From an uncultured Ruminiclostridium sp. (GTDB lineage Bacteria; Bacillota; Clostridia; Oscillospirales; Ruminococcaceae): a stretch of 36,487 nt of DNA. Location of the stretch: the NCBI GenBank assembly GCA_947624435.1, contig CANQKE010000027.1:1-36487 (forward strand). Reading direction: 5' to 3'. Shown in pieces: positions 21,129 through 35,063 of this stretch. The translations under genes and the position numbers were made by a program. The notes under the pieces were generated by a model. That model did no database searches, was not told the DNA's origin, and saw only the letters and a list, made by a program, of their open reading frames with translations. Position 1 is the first letter of the stretch, and each line of letters begins with the position of its first letter.

Positions 21129-22895
21129 ATGGACATGTCAGTTTTGACAACAATGTCGGAAGCCGCGCAGACGTCGGTACAGGACGTGGTAAACAGCACC
21201 ATGTTCGGCACGACGGGCGTGTGGTTCTTGATAGGAGCGGCGCTGGTATTCTTTATGCAGTGCGGCTTTGCAATGGTGGAGTCCGGCTTTACAAGAGCGA
21301 AGAACGCCGGCAACATCATAATGAAAAACCTTATGGACTTTTGTATCGGCACGGTGGTATTTACGGTGCTGGGATTCGGTCTGCTGTGCGGCGAGGACGC
21401 GCTCGGCGGATTTATGGGACTGCCCACGCTGGGTATCTTCACGGATTTTGCCAATTTCCCGTGGCACAACTTCGTATTTAACCTGGTGTTCTGCGCAACG
21501 GCGGCAACGATAGTTTCCGGTGCGATGGCAGAGAGGACGAAATTTCTTTCCTACTGCATTTACTCCGGTGTTATCAGCCTTATAATATACCCGATAGAGG
21601 CGCACTGGATCTGGGGCGGCGGCTGGCTTGCACAGCTCGGCTTTATCGATTTCGCAGGTTCTACCGCTATACATATGGTAGGCGGTGTGGTAGCGCTTAT
21701 CGGCGCGGCTATGGTAGGTCCTCGTCTGGGCAAATTCACCAAGGACGGCAAGCCTAAGGCTATACTCGGTCACTCCATGACGCTGGGCGCTCTGGGCGTG
21801 TTCATACTCTGGTTCGGCTGGTACGGATTCAACGGTGCGGCAGCCTCCAATCAGGACTTTTTGGGACAGATATTCCTTACCACGACTATCGCTCCCGCGG
21901 TGGCAACGGTAACTACTATGATATTCACATGGCTGAAAAACGGCAAGCCCGACGTTTCGATGTGCCTTAACGCGTCGCTTGCGGGTCTGGTTGCAATAAC
22001 CGCTCCCTGTGCGGACGTTGACGCGCTCGGCTCTATAATAATCGGTATCGTTGCCGGCCTGCTGGTGGTATTCGGCGTATGGCTGCTGGATTACAAGCTG
22101 AAGATAGACGACCCGGTCGGCGCTGTAGCGGTGCATTTCTTCAACGGTGTATGGGGTACTCTCGCGGTAGGTCTATTCGCTACCGGAAAAGGTCAGGACG
22201 GAATTATCGGTCTGTTCTACGGCGGCGGCTTCAAACAGCTCGGCATACAGGCGCTCGGTATGATAACCGTGCTTGCATGGGCGTCAATAACGATGTTCCT
22301 TGTATTCCTTGCTATTAAAAAGACTATCGGTCTTAGAGTTTCCCGCCATGAAGAGGTCAAAGGTCTTGACTCTACCGAGCACGGTCTGCCCACCGCATAC
22401 GCGGACTTCGTTCCGGCAGGCGATACTGTTTACAGCGGCGGTGACACCGTAACGGCGGTAACTCCCGCAGAGCCGGTAGAAAAGGCGGTAGTAGTACAGC
22501 ACGTCGGCAAGAAGGACAGCGAGTTCTCCGCTTCCGACGTAAAGATCACCAAGGTGGATATAATCGCAAATCAGGAGAAGTTCGAGATACTCAAGCACAA
22601 GCTGTCCGAGATAGGAATAACCGGTATGACCGTAACTCATGTAATGGGCTGCGGCATGCAGAAGGGCTCTACAGAGTTCTACCGTGGCGTTCCCGTCGAT
22701 GCAAGGCTGCTGCCTAAGATGAAGGTCGAGGTAGTGGTTTGCAAGGTGCCTGTTGAAAAGGTCATCGAGGCGGCTAAGGAAGCGCTGTATACCGGCAATA
22801 TCGGCGACGGTAAGATATTCGTCCATGATGTGGAGAATGTTGTAAAGATCCGTACCGGTGAAGAAGCCTACGACGCTTTACAGGATAACGAATAA
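21129..22895 (+). CDS. amt: Ammonium channel fused to a PII signalling domain
   Basis: A 588-aa protein. Residues 1 to about 425 are an Amt/Rh channel of 11 helices (GFAMVESGF, FGWYGFNGAA, HFFNGVWGTLAVGLFATG). After a linker of about 45 residues, about 471-580 form a PII (GlnB-type) domain with the T-loop GCGMQKGSTEFYRG and the nucleotide loop TGNIGDGKIFV. In free PII systems GlnK plugs Amt under nitrogen excess; here the gate is tethered. The Tyr51 position used for uridylylation in E. coli reads Val, so control is likely by ATP/ADP/2-oxoglutarate binding only. AAAGGGG precedes the ATG. Confidence 0.95.
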   Translation: MDMSVLTTMSEAAQTSVQDVVNSTMFGTTGVWFLIGAALVFFMQCGFAMVESGFTRAKNAGNIIMKNLMDFCIGTVVFTVLGFGLLCGEDALGGFMGLPTLGIFTDFANFPWHNFVFNLVFCATAATIVSGAMAERTKFLSYCIYSGVISLIIYPIEAHWIWGGGWLAQLGFIDFAGSTAIHMVGGVVALIGAAMVGPRLGKFTKDGKPKAILGHSMTLGALGVFILWFGWYGFNGAAASNQDFLGQIFLTTTIAPAVATVTTMIFTWLKNGKPDVSMCLNASLAGLVAITAPCADVDALGSIIIGIVAGLLVVFGVWLLDYKLKIDDPVGAVAVHFFNGVWGTLAVGLFATGKGQDGIIGLFYGGGFKQLGIQALGMITVLAWASITMFLVFLAIKKTIGLRVSRHEEVKGLDSTEHGLPTAYADFVPAGDTVYSGGDTVTAVTPAEPVEKAVVVQHVGKKDSEFSASDVKITKVDIIANQEKFEILKHKLSEIGITGMTVTHVMGCGMQKGSTEFYRGVPVDARLLPKMKVEVVVCKVPVEKVIEAAKEALYTGNIGDGKIFVHDVENVVKIRTGEEAYDALQDNE

Positions 22896-29012: not shown

Positions 29013-31484
29013 ATGAGCTTAATAAGGAAAATTTCCGCGTTCATCGCTTCGGCAATGCTGATAACAGCCGCTGTTTCGGCGGTCGGTATCGTTTCGGCAG
29101 AAAGCACGCCCGACGCAAGTCAGGTCGTTTCAGAAATGGGCGCGGGGTGGAATCTCGGCAACACGTTAGATGCCACCGGAGGACAAGGACTTTCATCGGA
29201 GACCTCGTGGGGCAATCCCAAGACCACCAAGAAAATGATCGACGCTGTAAAGGCGGAGGGCTTCAACACCGTGAGGATACCCGTTTCATGGGGAAAACAC
29301 ACCTCCGGCAGCAACTTTACCATTGACTCCGCATGGCTCAACAGGGTGCAGGAGGTAGTGGACTACTGTATCGACGACGATATGTACGTAATTCTCAATA
29401 TCCATCATGACACCGACAAGAAATACTATTATCCGAGCAGCACCTACAAAGATCAGTCGCTTAGATACATAAAGTCTATATGGAAACAGGTCAGCGAAAA
29501 ATTCAAAAATTACGACTATCATCTTGTTTTTGAAATAATGAACGAGCCGAGGCTTACCGGAACTAACGACGAATGGTGGTTCCCGGTAAATAACCCGAAC
29601 AGCGCCGTTAAAGATTCTATCAACATTATAAATCAGCTTAATCAGGCGGCGGTAGACACTATAAGAGCGGCGGGCGGCAGCAACAAGACCCGCAGCATAA
29701 TGATACCGGGCTACTGTGCGTCGATAGACGGCTGCACTACTCCTACTTTCAAGCTGCCCACCGACAGCGCAAAAAATCGCCTTATAGTATCAGTACACGC
29801 TTATACGCCTTACAACTTCTGCCTTAACGGAAGCGGCACGTCGGTATTCGGAGATTCGCTTAAAAGCGAGGTGGATTACCTTTTCGATACGCTGAACTCA
29901 AAGTACATCTCAAAAGGCATACCGGTAGTTATCGGCGAGACCAGCGCGTCCAACAAGGGCAACAAGGCGGAGCGTCTTAAATGGGCGGATTATTTCTGCG
30001 GAAGCGCGTCTAAGCTCGGCATACCCTGCGTATTGTGGGATAACAACGCATATCAGAACAGCGACAAGGGCGAGGCTCACGGTCATCTTGACAGGACAAA
30101 CTTAAGCTGGTACGACAAGAGCTTTGTGGACCGTATCGTGTCTTACTATCCGATAGTATCCAACGACGTATCCCGCGCGACGATATCCGCTATTTCGGAT
30201 AAGGCATATACCGGCTCGGCTGTAAAGCCGTCGGTCACTGTAAAGATAGGCGGCAAGACGCTCAAAAGCGGCACCGACTACAGCGTATCCTATAAATCGA
30301 ACACCAACATAGGCACCGCAAGCGTGACAATAACCGGCAAGGGAGATTATACCGGCAGCAAGACCGTTAATTTCAACATCGTTCCGGTACAGGTCAAAGG
30401 CTTTAAGCTGGTAAGCCGCACTTCCACCTCGTTAAAGCTGGAGTGGAGCAAGGCAAGCTCTATAAACGGCTACCGCATACAGCTTTATAAGAGCGGCAAG
30501 TGGACTACCGTCGCTACTGTTAAAAGCCCGAATACCGTCACCTGCACCGTCAGCGGACTGCCATCCGGCACGGCAAACAAGGTGCGCATACAGTCCTATA
30601 AGACGGTAAACGGCAAGAATTATTACGGTATCGAAAAGAGCGGCACCTGCTACACCGACCCGTCCGCGGTAACAGGCTTTAAGCTGGTGCAGCGCAGCGC
30701 GGATTCTCTTAAGCTCGGCTGGAACAAAAACTCCGGTGCTTCCGGCTATCTGCTGGAGCAGTACAAGGGCGGCAAGTGGGTACAAGCTGCGAATATAAAT
30801 AAAAATTCCACCACTTCTTATACTATAAAAGGACTGTCGGCGTCAACAAAATATCAGGTAAGGATAACCGCATATAAGAACGTCGGCGACAAGACGCTTA
30901 AGTCCTCGGCAAAGAGCGGCTCGTGCTATACCGCTCCGAAAGCGGTAACAGGCTTTAAGCTGGTGACCCGCGGCGCATACTCTCTTAAGCTCGGTTGGAA
31001 CAAAAATACCAGCGGTGACGGCTATATACTCGAACAGTACAAAAACGGCAAGTGGGTACAGGTCGCTAAGATAAATAAGAATACCACTTCCTATACCGTA
31101 AAGGAGCTTACCCCCGCGACCGCAAACAAGTTCCGCATAAAAGCATATAAGAACATCGGCGACAAGATAATCTACAGCGCCGAAAAGAGCGGCAGCTGCA
31201 ACACCGCTCCGCCGCAGGTAAGCGGTTTTAAGGCGTCCTCCTCTTCGGCGGGAGCCGCCAAGCTTAGTTGGAGCAAGAACGCTTATGCCGACGGGTACAG
31301 GATAGAGTACTACAGCGGCGGCAATTGGAAAAAACTCAGCGACTTTTCCGCAAGCAAGCTCTCCGCGTCCTACGGCGGAATGACGCGCGGCTCAAATTAT
31401 AAATTCCGCATAAGCGCATACGCAAAAATCGGCAGCGGATATTATTTCTCGTCGCCTGTGGAGCTTACAGTTAAGATAAAGTAA
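29013..31484 (+). CDS. Secreted GH5 endoglucanase-type enzyme with four Fn3 modules
   Basis: An 823-aa protein. The signal peptide is at about 1-29 (ends VSA). The GH5 catalytic domain, subfamily 4-like, spans about 30-382, with GWNLGNTLDA, acid/base Glu178 in MNEPR and nucleophile Glu309 in VIGETSAS. Then follow a small Ig-like MBG-type module (about 386-456, AYTGSAVKPSVTV) and four Fn3 modules (about 459-546, 549-640, 642-730, 734-823) with repeated GFKLV and KLGWNKN. No dockerin, carbohydrate-binding or LPXTG part was seen, so it is likely secreted. Substrate would be beta-1,4-glucan, xyloglucan or mixed glucan. GAAAGGAG precedes the ATG, 56 nt after the nucleotidase gene. Confidence 0.94.
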   Translation: MSLIRKISAFIASAMLITAAVSAVGIVSAESTPDASQVVSEMGAGWNLGNTLDATGGQGLSSETSWGNPKTTKKMIDAVKAEGFNTVRIPVSWGKHTSGSNFTIDSAWLNRVQEVVDYCIDDDMYVILNIHHDTDKKYYYPSSTYKDQSLRYIKSIWKQVSEKFKNYDYHLVFEIMNEPRLTGTNDEWWFPVNNPNSAVKDSINIINQLNQAAVDTIRAAGGSNKTRSIMIPGYCASIDGCTTPTFKLPTDSAKNRLIVSVHAYTPYNFCLNGSGTSVFGDSLKSEVDYLFDTLNSKYISKGIPVVIGETSASNKGNKAERLKWADYFCGSASKLGIPCVLWDNNAYQNSDKGEAHGHLDRTNLSWYDKSFVDRIVSYYPIVSNDVSRATISAISDKAYTGSAVKPSVTVKIGGKTLKSGTDYSVSYKSNTNIGTASVTITGKGDYTGSKTVNFNIVPVQVKGFKLVSRTSTSLKLEWSKASSINGYRIQLYKSGKWTTVATVKSPNTVTCTVSGLPSGTANKVRIQSYKTVNGKNYYGIEKSGTCYTDPSAVTGFKLVQRSADSLKLGWNKNSGASGYLLEQYKGGKWVQAANINKNSTTSYTIKGLSASTKYQVRITAYKNVGDKTLKSSAKSGSCYTAPKAVTGFKLVTRGAYSLKLGWNKNTSGDGYILEQYKNGKWVQVAKINKNTTSYTVKELTPATANKFRIKAYKNIGDKIIYSAEKSGSCNTAPPQVSGFKASSSSAGAAKLSWSKNAYADGYRIEYYSGGNWKKLSDFSASKLSASYGGMTRGSNYKFRISAYAKIGSGYYFSSPVELTVKIK

Positions 31485-31493
31485 ATTGATAAG

Positions 31494-31526
31494 TGGGGGA
31501 TCGGCTTTGATCCCCCATTGGTTATT
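31494..31526 (+). terminator. Terminator after the GH5 gene
   Basis: TGGGGGATC pairs with GATCCCCCA (9 bp, 6-nt loop), followed by TTGGTTATT. It separates the GH5 gene from the macro-domain gene. Confidence 0.7.
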
Positions 31527-31541
31527 AAGAGAGGAAAAACA

Positions 31542-32525
31542 ATGCCTGTTTGTATAGTAAGAAACGACATCACGAAAATGAAGGTCGACGCTGTCGTAAA
31601 CGCCGCTAACCGTACTTTGCTCGGAGGCGGAGGGGTGGACGGCGCGATACATAAAGCGGCGGGGCCGAAGTTGCTTGCCGAGTGCAAAACGCTCGGCGGG
31701 TGCGAGACCGGAGGCGCGAAGCTCACCCGCGGGTATAATATGCCGTGCAGATATATTATCCATACGGTAGGTCCGATATGGCAGGACGGGGAACACGGAG
31801 AACGGGAAAAGCTCGCTTCCTGCTACCGGACATCGCTTCAGCTTGCGAAAGAAGCTAAATGCGAAACGGTTGCATTCCCGCTTATCTCTTCCGGCGCTTA
31901 CGGTTATCCTAAAGATAAGGCGCTTAGGGTGGCTATAGATACTATCGGCGAATTTTTAGCGGAAAACGATATGACCGTTTATATCGTGATCTTTGATAAA
32001 GCGTCATATGTCATAAGTGAGAAGCTTTTTAAGGATATAAAGGAATACATAGACGACCGCTATGCCTACGAGCATATCGACCGGCGCACAAGGTCGCTTA
32101 GGGAATTCGCCGGTTATCCCATGCAGATGTCGGCGGACTTAAAAAGCGATTCCGAACCTACGCTTAAAGAGGCGGTGGAGCAGCTTGACGAGAGCTTTTC
32201 CGAGATGCTGCTGCGCAAGATAGACGAGCGCAAAATTACCGACGCGCAATGCTACAAGAAAGCGAACATCGACCGCAAGCTGTTTTCAAAAATACGCAGC
32301 GATAAGCGGTACAAGCCGTCTAAGACCACGGCGATAGCGTTCGCGGTGGCGCTGGAGCTTTCGCTTGATGAAACTAAGGAGCTGCTGATGAAAGCGGGCT
32401 TTGCGCTTTCGCACTCGAATAAATTCGATATCATCATAGAGTATTTTATAGAACACGGAAATTACAATATTTTTGAGATAAACGAAGCGCTGTTCGCATT
32501 CGATCAGAGCCTGCTCGGTTCGTGA
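31542..32525 (+). CDS. Macro domain fused to a helix-turn-helix (XRE-like) domain
   Basis: A 327-aa protein. Residues 1 to about 165 are a MacroD-type macro domain with [19 protein letters not shown], the ADP-ribose and O-acetyl-ADP-ribose hydrolase signature, and [12 protein letters not shown]. The last about 110 residues (from about 210) carry a helical part with [25 protein letters not shown] and [17 protein letters not shown], an XRE-like helix-turn-helix that I recall fused to macro and other domains in Firmicutes. It therefore may both remove ADP-ribose and bind DNA or RNA. The ATG at 31542 follows AGAGGAAAA; an in-frame upstream ATG at 31518 lies in the preceding terminator tail. The two following genes also concern ADP-ribose or sensing. 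Confidence 0.93.
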
Positions 32526-32585
32526 CGGTTTTGGTATGCGGGGGACTTTTACGGGAGTATTTTTGTTAATGCTCTAGGCAAAAAT

Positions 32586-32602
32586 GTCGCTTTGAAAGCG
32601 AC
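32586..32602. promoter_or_regulatory. Perfect 17-bp dyad, candidate operator
   Basis: GTCGCTTT and AAAGCGAC are perfect inverted arms around one central G. The dyad lies 22 nt upstream of a TATAAT (32624-32629) that has no consensus -35, i.e. where a regulator would act. The XRE domain encoded just upstream is the obvious candidate ligand, by inference only. Confidence 0.45.
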
Positions 32603-32681
32603 CAAAACGAAAAAGCTTTCCGTTATAATATTTATTGTAAGGCAAAAGCCGAGCAGTAATATTATAATGGAGGGCACGAAA

Positions 32682-33338
32682 ATGAAAAAGGATCTTACGG
32701 AGCTAGTATTTATACTCGACCGCAGCGGTTCGATGAGCGGGCTGGAGTCGGACACGATAGGCGGTTTCAATTCCGTTATCGAAAAGCAGCGGGAGGAGCA
32801 TGGCGAGGCGGTCGTATCTACCGTGCTGTTCGATAACGAAAGCGAGGTAATACACGACCGCGTGGATATTCGCAATGTTAAGCCGATGACAAGAAAGGAG
32901 TACAGCGTGCGCGGCTGCACCGCGCTTATCGACGCGATAGGCGGGGCGATACACCATATCGGAAACGTCCATAAATACGCCCGCAGCGAGGACGTACCGG
33001 AGCATACGCTGTTCGTTATCACTACAGACGGCATGGAAAACGCCAGCCGCCGCTATTCGCTCAACAAGGTGAAGAAGATGATAGAGCGGCAAAAAGAAAA
33101 ATACGGCTGGGAGTTTTTGTTCCTCGGCGCGAACATAGACGCGGTGGAAACGGCGGGAACTTTGGGCATATCCGCCGACCGCGCGGCGACCTACAACGCC
33201 GATATAGCGGGAACGCATATCCTTTATGAAACGGTAGGCTCGGCGATAACCAGAGTCCGCGGCTGCGCACCGCTTGGCGATGATTGGAAGCTGAATATTG
33301 AGGAGGACAGAAAAAGACGCAGAAAAGGAGGAAAATAA
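32682..33338 (+). CDS. von Willebrand A domain protein (TerY-like)
   Basis: A 218-aa cytosolic protein formed by one vWA fold. The MIDAS metal site is complete: DRSGSMSG near residue 13, Thr in RGCTALIDAI and Asp in TTDGMENAS. The tail is highly basic (EEDRKRRRKGGK). It resembles TerY-type vWA proteins found with stress and tellurite-associated modules. Such proteins bind partners through a metal ion. GGAGGG precedes the ATG at 32682; an earlier in-frame ATG at 32592 lies inside the dyad. Its stop touches the start of the next gene, so the two are co-translated. Confidence 0.9.
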   Translation: MKKDLTELVFILDRSGSMSGLESDTIGGFNSVIEKQREEHGEAVVSTVLFDNESEVIHDRVDIRNVKPMTRKEYSVRGCTALIDAIGGAIHHIGNVHKYARSEDVPEHTLFVITTDGMENASRRYSLNKVKKMIERQKEKYGWEFLFLGANIDAVETAGTLGISADRAATYNADIAGTHILYETVGSAITRVRGCAPLGDDWKLNIEEDRKRRRKGGK

Positions 33339-34124
33339 ATGCTCGGAGCGATAATCGGGGACATAGCAGGTTCCCGCTTTGAATGGAACAATCACAAAAG
33401 TAAGGATTTTGAGCTGTTTTCGCGGCTGTGCATGCCTACCGATGATTCAGTCATGACTTTAGCCATAGCTAAGGCGTTGCTGCTTTGCGGCGGCGATCAT
33501 ACCCGACTTAGCGAGCAGGCGGTCAGCTGTATGCAAACGCTCGGCCGAAAATACCCGTACTGCGGCTATGGCACAATGTTTAATAAATGGCTTAATTCAA
33601 ATGATCCTAAACCCTACAACAGCTACGGAAACGGAGCGGCTATGCGAGTAAGTCCCTGTTCGTATTTCGCAGACAGCCTCGATAAGGTAAAGGAGTTGTC
33701 AAGGGCGGTCACCGTTGTGACTCACAACCATCCCGAGGGACTAAAGGGCGCAGAGGCGACCGCCGTCGCGGTATGGCTTGCAAAAAACGGCAGTGATAAG
33801 GCTCACATACGTAAGGTCATCACCGAAAATTACTACCCGTTGGATTTTACTCTGGACGAAATACGGGACGGCTACCGTTTCAACGAAACCTGTCAGCAGA
33901 CCGTTCCGCAGGCTATAGAGGCGTTTTTGGAGTCCGACGGTTTTGAGGACGCTGTACGCTGCGCAATATCAATAGGCGGGGACAGCGACACGCTGGCTGC
34001 TATTACGGGAGGTATCGCCGAAGCGTATTACGGCATACCCGCCGGGATAAGAGCAAAGGCGGAGGGATTTCTTGACGATCATCTCTTGGAAATTTTGCAT
34101 GAGGCAGAAAAAACAACAGAATAA
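33339..34124 (+). CDS. ADP-ribosylglycohydrolase (DraG/ARH family)
   Basis: A 261-aa enzyme expected to remove ADP-ribose from proteins (arginine in the DraG group) or free adducts. The di-magnesium motifs are present: GDIAGSRFEW, PTDDSVMT at about 33-40, and GGDSDTLAAITGGIA near 217. The fold and length fit the family. It starts directly after the vWA stop, with AAAAGGAGG upstream, so both are made in step. No nitrogenase or ADP-ribosyltransferase gene is near, so the classical DraT/DraG role is unlikely. Confidence 0.94.
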   Translation: MLGAIIGDIAGSRFEWNNHKSKDFELFSRLCMPTDDSVMTLAIAKALLLCGGDHTRLSEQAVSCMQTLGRKYPYCGYGTMFNKWLNSNDPKPYNSYGNGAAMRVSPCSYFADSLDKVKELSRAVTVVTHNHPEGLKGAEATAVAVWLAKNGSDKAHIRKVITENYYPLDFTLDEIRDGYRFNETCQQTVPQAIEAFLESDGFEDAVRCAISIGGDSDTLAAITGGIAEAYYGIPAGIRAKAEGFLDDHLLEILHEAEKTTE

Positions 34125-34128
34125 AAAA

Positions 34129-34167
34129 TAACGCTCGTAATTCACCGATTGGAAATTACGAGCGTTA
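34129..34167. terminator. Two-way terminator between convergent genes
   Basis: A perfect 14-bp stem, TAACGCTCGTAATT (34129-34142) with 34154-34167, loop of 11 nt. On - it is followed by TTTTTTAT, so it is strongest for the LCP-like gene; on + the tail is weaker. Confidence 0.85.
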
Positions 34168-34181
34168 AATATTAAGCTTGT

Positions 34182-35063
34182 TTACCGATTTATTTTATCG
34201 TTGATGGTCTTTATGCTGTCTTCGCTTATCACATAATTATTCCCGCTAAGCTTGCCGTAGGGGATATAATAATCGCACGGCGTGGGGGAATCGTCGAAAG
34301 TATACAGCAGCGCCGCCTTTTTGGAAAGGAAGTCCTGCTCGGTTATATTGGTATCGGTGAATCCCGTGATAAATTCCATATATTCGTCCATTGACGCTTC
34401 GCTTATATCGGCGAAATTCTGATTTATAAAGCTGCTTATCGCGGTGGCCTGGACCTTGCAGGAATATTGCACGTCTTTCTCCCCAAAGTCCGGGAAGGTA
34501 AGATAATCATACAGCTGCGAGCCGGAAAACGCGCTTGTACCCTGCTTTATTATCGTCAGCGTGTTGTCCTTGTTTTCGTACTTTAATTCTTTCGGAACGG
34601 AGAGCGTGGTATTGCCCACCATGTTGAAAAACTGCACGGCGGTGGATTTTGTAAAGCGGATATATTTGGTTATCTCAGTCCCGGCGGCATTTGACAGCGC
34701 GGACATTACCGCACCGGGGTCTCCGCTGCCGTAAGCGTTTTTCAGTACCGCGCCGCCTATATCGGAATTACTCAAAAAGGGCATAACGGTAAACTGCGAA
34801 TTTTCCGCGCGGTAGGTCAGCGTCATGAACTGCTCCGGCGCTGCGTCCGCCGTTTCACTTATCATGATAAGCATTGTAAAATCATAATTGCTGTCTGGCA
34901 CGAATATCGTACCCGTAGTCGGCTGCTGCTGCACGTTTTGATTTGCTTGCTGCGAGCTGTAGTAGGAACTCAGCAGCACGTTGGATACTATGAACAGCAA
35001 CACTCCGGTGATAACAAATGTAATAAGGTAAATGTACCAGTTACTTCTTCTTTTTGTATTCAA
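34182..35063 (-). CDS. Membrane-anchored, degenerate LytR-CpsA-Psr-like protein
   Basis: A 293-aa protein with one N-terminal membrane helix (about 9-32, after TKRRSN) and an extracytoplasmic domain. The order of segments follows LCP proteins: an FTMLIM strand, TLTYRAENSQFTVMPF, TKYIRFTKSTAVQFFNMVGN, LSVPKELKYEN, then LTIIKQGTSAFSGSQLYDYL. The arginines and aspartates that bind polyprenyl phosphate in active LCP ligases (an Asp/Arg pair near the start, Arg in the YVRFR-type motif) are not at their places. It could be an inactive or regulatory homologue. The start is TTG at 35063, seven nt after AGGAGG. Confidence 0.65.
   Translation of the reverse strand: MNTKRRSNWYIYLITFVITGVLLFIVSNVLLSSYYSSQQANQNVQQQPTTGTIFVPDSNYDFTMLIMISETADAAPEQFMTLTYRAENSQFTVMPFLSNSDIGGAVLKNAYGSGDPGAVMSALSNAAGTEITKYIRFTKSTAVQFFNMVGNTTLSVPKELKYENKDNTLTIIKQGTSAFSGSQLYDYLTFPDFGEKDVQYSCKVQATAISSFINQNFADISEASMDEYMEFITGFTDTNITEQDFLSKKAALLYTFDDSPTPCDYYIPYGKLSGNNYVISEDSIKTINDKINR

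Follow-up and report, generated by a model that had tools for sequence, protein, structure and literature searches.

Bacteria attacked by phage or rival ADP-ribosylation are expected to notice and reverse the modification, and few sensors for ADP-ribosylation are, to our knowledge, known in bacteria. The closest described systems are the ARG-centred systems (PMC9503650), which are predicted to act against viral ADP-ribosylation without a linked transferase, use vWA, SseB or TY chaperones and sometimes Macro, include a Nudix-HTH or WYL-HTH (helix-turn-helix) regulator in over 42% of cases and a coupled phosphatase in a little over 55%, and are named from lineages that include actinobacteria, planctomycetes and proteobacteria. 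Here we analyse a 36,487-nucleotide stretch from an uncultured Ruminiclostridium sp. (assembly GCA_947624435.1, contig CANQKE010000027.1; hereafter the window), in which genes for a putative macro-HTH protein, a vWA protein and an ADP-ribosylglycohydrolase (ARH) follow one another on the forward strand. Comparison with relatives makes it probable that the macro-HTH protein is a one-component regulator acting on an operator of the vWA-ARH unit, most likely as an activator responding to an ADP-ribose signal, with the roles of ARH and vWA as proposed below. All three genes are present where a first-pass annotation of the window had placed them, and the elements of the locus are as follows.

31542..32525, + strand: macro-HTH gene (gene 1), 327 residues; MacroD-type macro domain at residues 1-165, putative Cro/C1-like HTH C-terminal domain at about residues 213-327
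32585..32603, + strand: predicted operator TGTCGCTTTGAAAGCGACC, palindrome TGTCGC-N7-GCGACC; sole exact match in the genome
32624..32629, + strand: -10 box TATAAT, exactly 20 nucleotides (nt) past the operator; without a recognisable -35 hexamer
32682..33338, + strand: vWA gene, 218 residues, full metal ion-dependent adhesion site (MIDAS)
33339..34124, + strand: short DraG/ARH-type ADP-ribosylglycohydrolase (ARH) gene, 261 residues; start codon abuts the vWA stop codon
34129..34167, + strand: hairpin 3' of ARH, -20 kcal/mol, z -6.2, equalled by 0 of 200 shuffles; without a long U-run

A palindrome at fixed distance from a -10 box precedes vWA genes

In distant Bacillota (loci L214, L216, L218, L219 and L227) an HTH-only protein is encoded divergently from the vWA, and it was in such gaps that a repeat search first revealed the palindrome, which the window shares. 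The window holds one exact GTCGC-N7-GCGAC (32586-32602; 0.08 expected), and TGTCGC-N7-GCGAC occurs once in the genome versus four times for the reversed control. GTCGC-N7-GCGAC lies at most 350 nt upstream of 121 of 132 vWA matches (shuffle mean 0.02), a set in which one split gene is counted twice, one match has 3 nt of upstream sequence and copies of loci shared between collections are kept. Of 117 distinct 19-nt sites, 114 are followed by a TANNNT box at a spacing of exactly 20 nt, and the best -35 match reaches at most two of six positions in 108 of those 114. Of 398 phylum genomes, 43 hold site and -10 box together, with 49 copies in all, versus one for the reversed pattern; among 31 of the 49 that were read, 26 stand before a vWA gene, one before an ARH gene and four before something else or nothing clear. 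Viral contigs yield 45 stretches with this combination, in eight of which a vWA or ARH gene follows the site; the remaining 37 are chance-like. The outer flanks are asymmetric, with T before the site in 98% and C after it in 98%, and the first and last spacer positions over the 117 sites are TT in 17, AA in 10, CT in 9 and CA in 9.

Transcription generally starts about 7 nt past the -10 box, and class II activators bind near -42. With the predicted start so placed, at about 32636, the midpoint of the site falls near -42, some 42 bp upstream of it; because of this position, the good -10 box and the missing -35 hexamer, the protein bound there would most likely activate.

The operator and -10 box also stand before a gene for a secreted, by eye peptidase-like protein (L259, G079:C13:57779), a possible extra regulon member, and before a 439-residue gene of unknown function (L303, G342:C13:62760; the same locus as L233 and L082) that adjoins a macro-HTH gene without a vWA. 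Two other candidate elements were rejected. The sole Rfam match in 31400-34300 at E up to 1 is a snoRNA under its gathering score, 3' of ARH. Inverted repeats of at least 8 occur in 11 of 127 stretches upstream of macro-HTH genes (1.65 in shuffled sequence), and an autoregulatory repeat there was dropped, as inspection of the first 45 stretches showed no sequence in common.

The operator follows the HTH and covaries with its helix

Across 299 genomes, the HTH (E<1e-20) and the site with its -10 box occur together in 34, the HTH alone in eight, the site alone in three and neither in 254 (Fisher p 1e-33; 53 genomes have any HTH match, the 11 weaker ones being counted as HTH-negative), a co-occurrence that, as a point against its weight, partly restates the pairing of vWA and HTH. 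Covariation was counted over 138 unique HTH-site pairs having a site (uniqueness being by HTH match and site, so that a genome fetched twice, such as G092, may recur): the FSKI helix goes with GC/GC half-sites in 126 of 130 pairs, the SRQ..FS[N/L]I helix with AA/TT in 3 of 3, and the FS[A/S]I helix with TT/AC twice, GT/AC twice and GC/AT once, but in no case with GC/GC. A change in the predicted recognition helix is thus usually accompanied by a change in the half-sites. This supports, indirectly, sequence-specific DNA binding of the HTH to the operator; where the first-pass annotation had spoken of possible DNA or RNA binding, the evidence now favours the former.

The vWA site is retained in four genomes whose HTH gene lies elsewhere and not beside the vWA (G034, G047, G058 and G074), and no operator was found at seven control vWA genes, belonging to Fusobacteria, a second Selenomonas plasmid, an actinobacterium and two phages, where no such HTH is encoded within the fetched sequence. 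Two of the site-less vWAs, from Fusobacterium, match the window's at about 56%; those of Niallia and Acetoanaerobium (55%, HTH present) carry the site. A family-level search for further SRQ helices, covering four genomes, gave nothing new, and among the viral-contig matches listed the AA/TT pattern is too common to be informative.

The macro-HTH and vWA pair is the conserved core

Among 99 relatives, a set that includes the window's own genome, a close vWA (55-70% identity) occurs in 29 other genomes; all 30 vWA genomes carry the HTH (E<1e-20), as do five of the remaining 69, where that vWA is missing (Fisher p 1.6e-20). In the named genome collection, for which the best 80 of at least 582 C-domain relatives were used (76 of them macro-HTH), a vWA gene lies within 6 kb downstream on the same strand of 60 of the 76 macro-HTH genes; of the 16 misses, nine sit in loci whose fetched sequence ends within 6 kb, and one has its vWA upstream. 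The vWA is likewise near 20 of 23 macro-HTH genes in the phylum sample and 10 of 11 in viral contigs, with the proviso that the collections overlap through identical (L082 = L233) or near-identical (L073, L141, L142) records and are not fully independent. ARH, counted at E<1e-20 with weaker or partial matches in L084, L126 and L252 left out, lies within 6 kb in 3 of 76 loci of the genome collection, 3 of 23 of the phylum sample, 4 of 11 viral contigs and 1 of 17 relatives (loci fetched because they bear a vWA). The conserved core in Bacillota is the macro-HTH and vWA pair, with ARH optional; the trio of the first-pass annotation does not, on these counts, hold up as a conserved unit.

Neighbour clustering within 6 kb gave no other fixed partner, the largest same-strand families being an ABC-transporter ATPase, present in 10 loci with scattered spacing, and an ArsC-like gene (9 or 10 loci; Pfam ArsC). 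The genes between macro-HTH and vWA vary, including ArsC-like, Y-family polymerase, DUF2200, HD and nuclease genes (partly named by eye), and family copies occur in 11 contigs of the viral collection and also on plasmids or integrated elements. The gap cargo of L060, L062, L073, L106, L112, L127, L141 and L142 comprises, by eye, a Y-family polymerase with a small partner, a GmrSD-like gene, an ATPase and others, as in a mobile stress or defence hotspot.

Domain composition of the three proteins

The macro part of gene 1 matches Pfam Macro at E 2e-47 (160 bits) and exceeds, at 206.8 bits, the 200-bit cut-off of the NCBIfam O-acetyl-ADP-ribose deacetylase model by a small measure, and its best solved relative is MACROD2. 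It contains the MacroD motifs NAAN...GGGGVDG and S-S/T-G-x-Y-G, can probably accommodate ADP-ribose, and retains N23 and D33, which we take to be the catalytic positions of MacroD. In an alignment of 126 full-length sequences out of 134 matches, D9, N20, G31, H74, S116, G118 and P123 are conserved in 125 or 126 of 126.

The evidence that the C-terminal domain is HTH-like is weak. Over the full-length protein, no Pfam HTH model matched at E up to 0.1; with the C-terminal 115 residues scanned alone at E up to 1, HTH_26 matched 10 of 34 family members (best 1.9e-4) and HTH_3 seven of 34, the window's own domain falling under every cut-off. Profile matches to solved structures are weak as well (best E 0.12), PHROGs ties the domain to one phage family of unknown function, and phage searches with it returned four and three records.

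The sole Pfam match of the vWA protein is VWA_CoxE, at 19.8 bits under the 26.4-bit cut-off, and the family profile retrieves integrin I domains (best E 1e-4). All 43 aligned relatives share D13, S15, S17, T80 and D116, presumably the MIDAS residues. Of the TerY-like vWA with full MIDAS originally described, the MIDAS stands and the likeness to TerY is conjectural. No Ter, kinase or PP2C gene, which we assume to be linked features of TerY-type Ter systems, adjoins the three genes among the 18 window proteins that were scanned, a subset of the window's genes. Homologous vWA genes are found in 215 phage records (e.g. L178, L179), with no operator at the two phage vWA genes read that lack the HTH; in Microbacterium phage Crisis, a gene annotated as an ADP-ribosyltransferase is found about 3.6 kb away from the vWA gene.

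The third gene, rightly described at the outset as a DraG-type ARH starting directly at the vWA stop codon (33338/33339), matches Pfam ADP_ribosyl_GH at E 2e-35. Its stretches TDD, YGNG-AMR, TH and GGDSDT align with solved ARHs, and T34-D36, G97-N98-G99, A101-M102-R103 and G213-T218 are shared by all 11 full-length sequences used (of 12 matches); TDD, GGDSDT and YGNG-AMR we take to serve metal and ADP-ribose binding.

ARH genes in the predicted regulon

An ARH gene behind the vWA and the same operator is found in the window, L147, L239 and L501. Seventeen short-type ARH genes, the window's included, were picked and read (the short ones of G032 and G081 lie outside this set), and among the 16 from relatives, nine are preceded by an operator-like site of their own, the -10 box again at exactly 20 nt (0.002 expected over 17; one gene appears as two frames in the site table). 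Four of these site-bearing genes have no HTH in the fetched stretch and an HTH elsewhere in the genome (L162, L163, L165 and L168), L163 with a canonical site; an own site before ARH also occurs in L078, L145, L146, L243, L245 and L252. The eight ARH genes without their own site include the window's (behind the vWA), those of G041 and G056 (no HTH match), G049 (weak HTH), G026 (variant helix) and G059 (HTH adjoining). By Pfam, L163:2512-4764 and L164:3279-5123 encode triple fusions in which this ARH subfamily is joined to SseB and Macro, SseB being fused to ARH in L161, L163 and L164; a canonical operator precedes the L163 fusion, whose fetched surroundings contain no HTH gene, and at L164 our script found no site. 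Judged by these predicted sites, ARH is tied to the macro-HTH and vWA pair and its regulon, though optional as a neighbour.

Surroundings of the locus

The 18 scanned window proteins include the direct neighbours on both sides of the three genes; the other 15 are housekeeping-like (pyrimidine synthesis, chemotaxis, glycosidases, ammonium transport, alanine racemase and similar). The initial remark that no transferase is visible holds for them: no ADP-ribosyltransferase or sirtuin is among the 18, DarT is absent from the genome by a genome search from which other transferase families, including DraT, were left out, and the one SIR2 gene lies on a different contig. The wider picture drawn there, of ADP-ribose erasers grouped with a sensing component in the absence of a transferase, likewise survives as a reading. 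A 5'-nucleotidase is encoded two genes 5' of macro-HTH, outside the operator-vWA-ARH unit, and no coupled phosphatase lies inside that unit, whose transcript likely ends at the hairpin 34129-34167. Elsewhere in the genome are a second macro gene (G000:C1:25297-25668) and a second, longer ADP-ribosylglycohydrolase (G000:C22:28067-29014). At 21129-22895, the window has a single 588-residue frame for an ammonium transporter fused to a P-II regulatory protein.

A model of ADP-ribose-responsive control and its alternatives

In the model that we favour, a dimer of the HTH would bind TGTCGC-N7-GCGACC upstream of the vWA-ARH unit, and the macro domain would read an ADP-ribose ligand, be it free ADP-ribose, O-acetyl-ADP-ribose or an ADP-ribosylated end. 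Rising ADP-ribose would then lead to production of vWA and ARH, the latter stripping or degrading ADP-ribose conjugates and the former acting as a metal-dependent, partner-binding helper. Whether this amounts to a novel class of activator, with ADP-ribose read by a macro domain and erasers switched on directly at a fixed promoter design (TGTCGC-N7-GCGACC, 20 nt, -10 box), used across Bacillota and in mobile elements to report ADP-ribosylation attack or NAD+ breakdown, is in our judgement evenly balanced.

Several observations weigh against this model. ADP-ribose, the likely ligand of the macro domain, is a prediction resting on homology; some relatives' HTH proteins lack a macro domain, which in several is absent or replaced; and N23 and/or D33 are altered in 35 of the 126 macro domains. 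Together with the conservation of D9, N20 and the other positions listed above, this pattern fits a domain retained more for binding than for cleavage, although some macro domains without the aspartate are active. On the DNA side, the palindrome without a -10 box is only slightly commoner than its reversed control in the 99 relatives (48 vs 37), altered half-sites accompany 4 of the 130 FSKI helices, and loci without a TGTC-N11-GAC site and -10 box (e.g. L033, L039, L164, L223 and L227) fall outside the covariation count. In a tree built without the helix columns, the SRQ helices are compatible with one origin (p-AU 0.129), so that the switch to AA/TT may have occurred just once, and so are those of the A/S group (p-AU 0.5). 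Genome G038 has a canonical vWA site and only a variant HTH, and in G248 and G233 site and vWA are present but no full HTH match is. Of the ARH genes with the HTH elsewhere in the genome, the other three have off-consensus sites (G037 TT/AC, G090 GC/AC, G039 GT/GC) despite a standard-type HTH in those genomes, and the ARH genes of G042 and G074 are site-less in genomes with a standard HTH elsewhere.

The same protein could act in the opposite sense, blocking the vWA-ARH promoter until ADP-ribose lifts the block. A dimer over the -35 region can indeed block RNA polymerase, and negative regulators (Nudix, WYL) are proposed for the ARG-centred systems (PMC9503650). Here, however, the promoter has no -35 hexamer to block, and the fixed 20-nt spacing would better suit an activator touching RNA polymerase, which leaves repression unlikely. 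That the palindrome is an RNA hairpin or the site of some other factor, unrelated to macro-HTH, we regard as highly improbable: its flanks are asymmetric and its arms could pair in RNA, but it lies upstream of the -10 box and would not be transcribed from that promoter, its inner positions are often unpaired, as the spacer counts above illustrate, no Rfam match falls on it, and its half-sites covary with the HTH helix.

Two further explanations concern what the circuit is for. Two erasers and a chaperone might guard against phage or toxin ADP-ribosyltransferases by reversing foreign ADP-ribosylation, which is compatible with the activator model as its purpose. The lack of a linked transferase among the proteins scanned, the copies in viral-collection contigs and on plasmids or integrated elements, and the variable genes between macro-HTH and vWA, some of them by eye defence- or DNA-repair-like (GmrSD-like, Y-family polymerase), would fit such a guard, and counter-measures to viral ADP-ribosylation are predicted in section 3.8 of PMC9503650. 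The scanned window proteins are housekeeping-like, however, no phage or toxin trigger emerged, and PADLOC gave no convincing match for the three genes, its sole match being an oligonucleotide-cyclase model to gene 1 at E 0.021; we hold this purpose to be possible but doubtful. Alternatively, the circuit might, as ordinary NAD-metabolite housekeeping, sense and clear what the cell's own sirtuin or NADases release, namely O-acetyl-ADP-ribose or free ADP-ribose. The genome does encode one SIR2 protein and a second macro protein, and gene 1 clears the O-acetyl-ADP-ribose deacetylase cut-off; against this, SIR2 is on another contig, and a vWA partner and a patchy spread (the site in 43 of 398 phylum genomes) are unlike core metabolism, and such housekeeping seems rather unlikely.

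If the activator model is true, the locus would be a simple circuit for sensing and clearing ADP-ribose modification, and the widespread family would offer it in small, complete and testable form: a predicted sensor, an exact DNA site, a promoter and target genes. The operator is moreover a tool for finding candidate regulon members distant from the sensor gene, including the ARH-SseB-Macro fusion, and the paired helix and half-site changes are a ready set for studying HTH site choice.

Comparison with known systems

In the full-text literature searched, with subscription papers, preprints and supplementary files outside its scope, we recognised no description of a Macro-HTH regulator or of this operator. 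The macro domain itself resembles MACROD1/2 and bacterial MacroD hydrolases such as YmdB and OiMacroD (160 bits to Pfam Macro, MACROD2 as the best solved match), from which it differs in its fusion to a putative DNA-binding domain and in the changes, in 35 of 126 members, at the positions we take to be catalytic. A Macro or DraG-type eraser is shared with DarT-DarG and DraT-DraG; unlike the former, the genome has no DarT, and unlike both, the locus has no transferase among the neighbours scanned, DraT having been left out of the genome-wide search. NrtR, an ADP-ribose-responsive Nudix protein, also joins an ADP-ribose-binding domain to an HTH in a one-component design (PMC9503650), whereas the sensor fold and the targets differ here, and probably the sign of control too.

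Closest are the ARG-centred systems, with which the locus shares an ADP-ribosylglycohydrolase without a linked transferase, a vWA or SseB chaperone-like partner, variable extra genes, Macro and a one-component regulator with an ADP-ribose-type sensor, here predicted. It differs from them in that the regulator is a Macro-HTH protein in Bacillota rather than a proposed Nudix or WYL repressor, that a sequence-defined operator occupies an activator-like position, and that ARH is optional. The system, as predicted here, operates in the manner of the ARG-centred systems and shares most of its parts with them; what is new is the kind of regulator, together with an operator and promoter defined by sequence.

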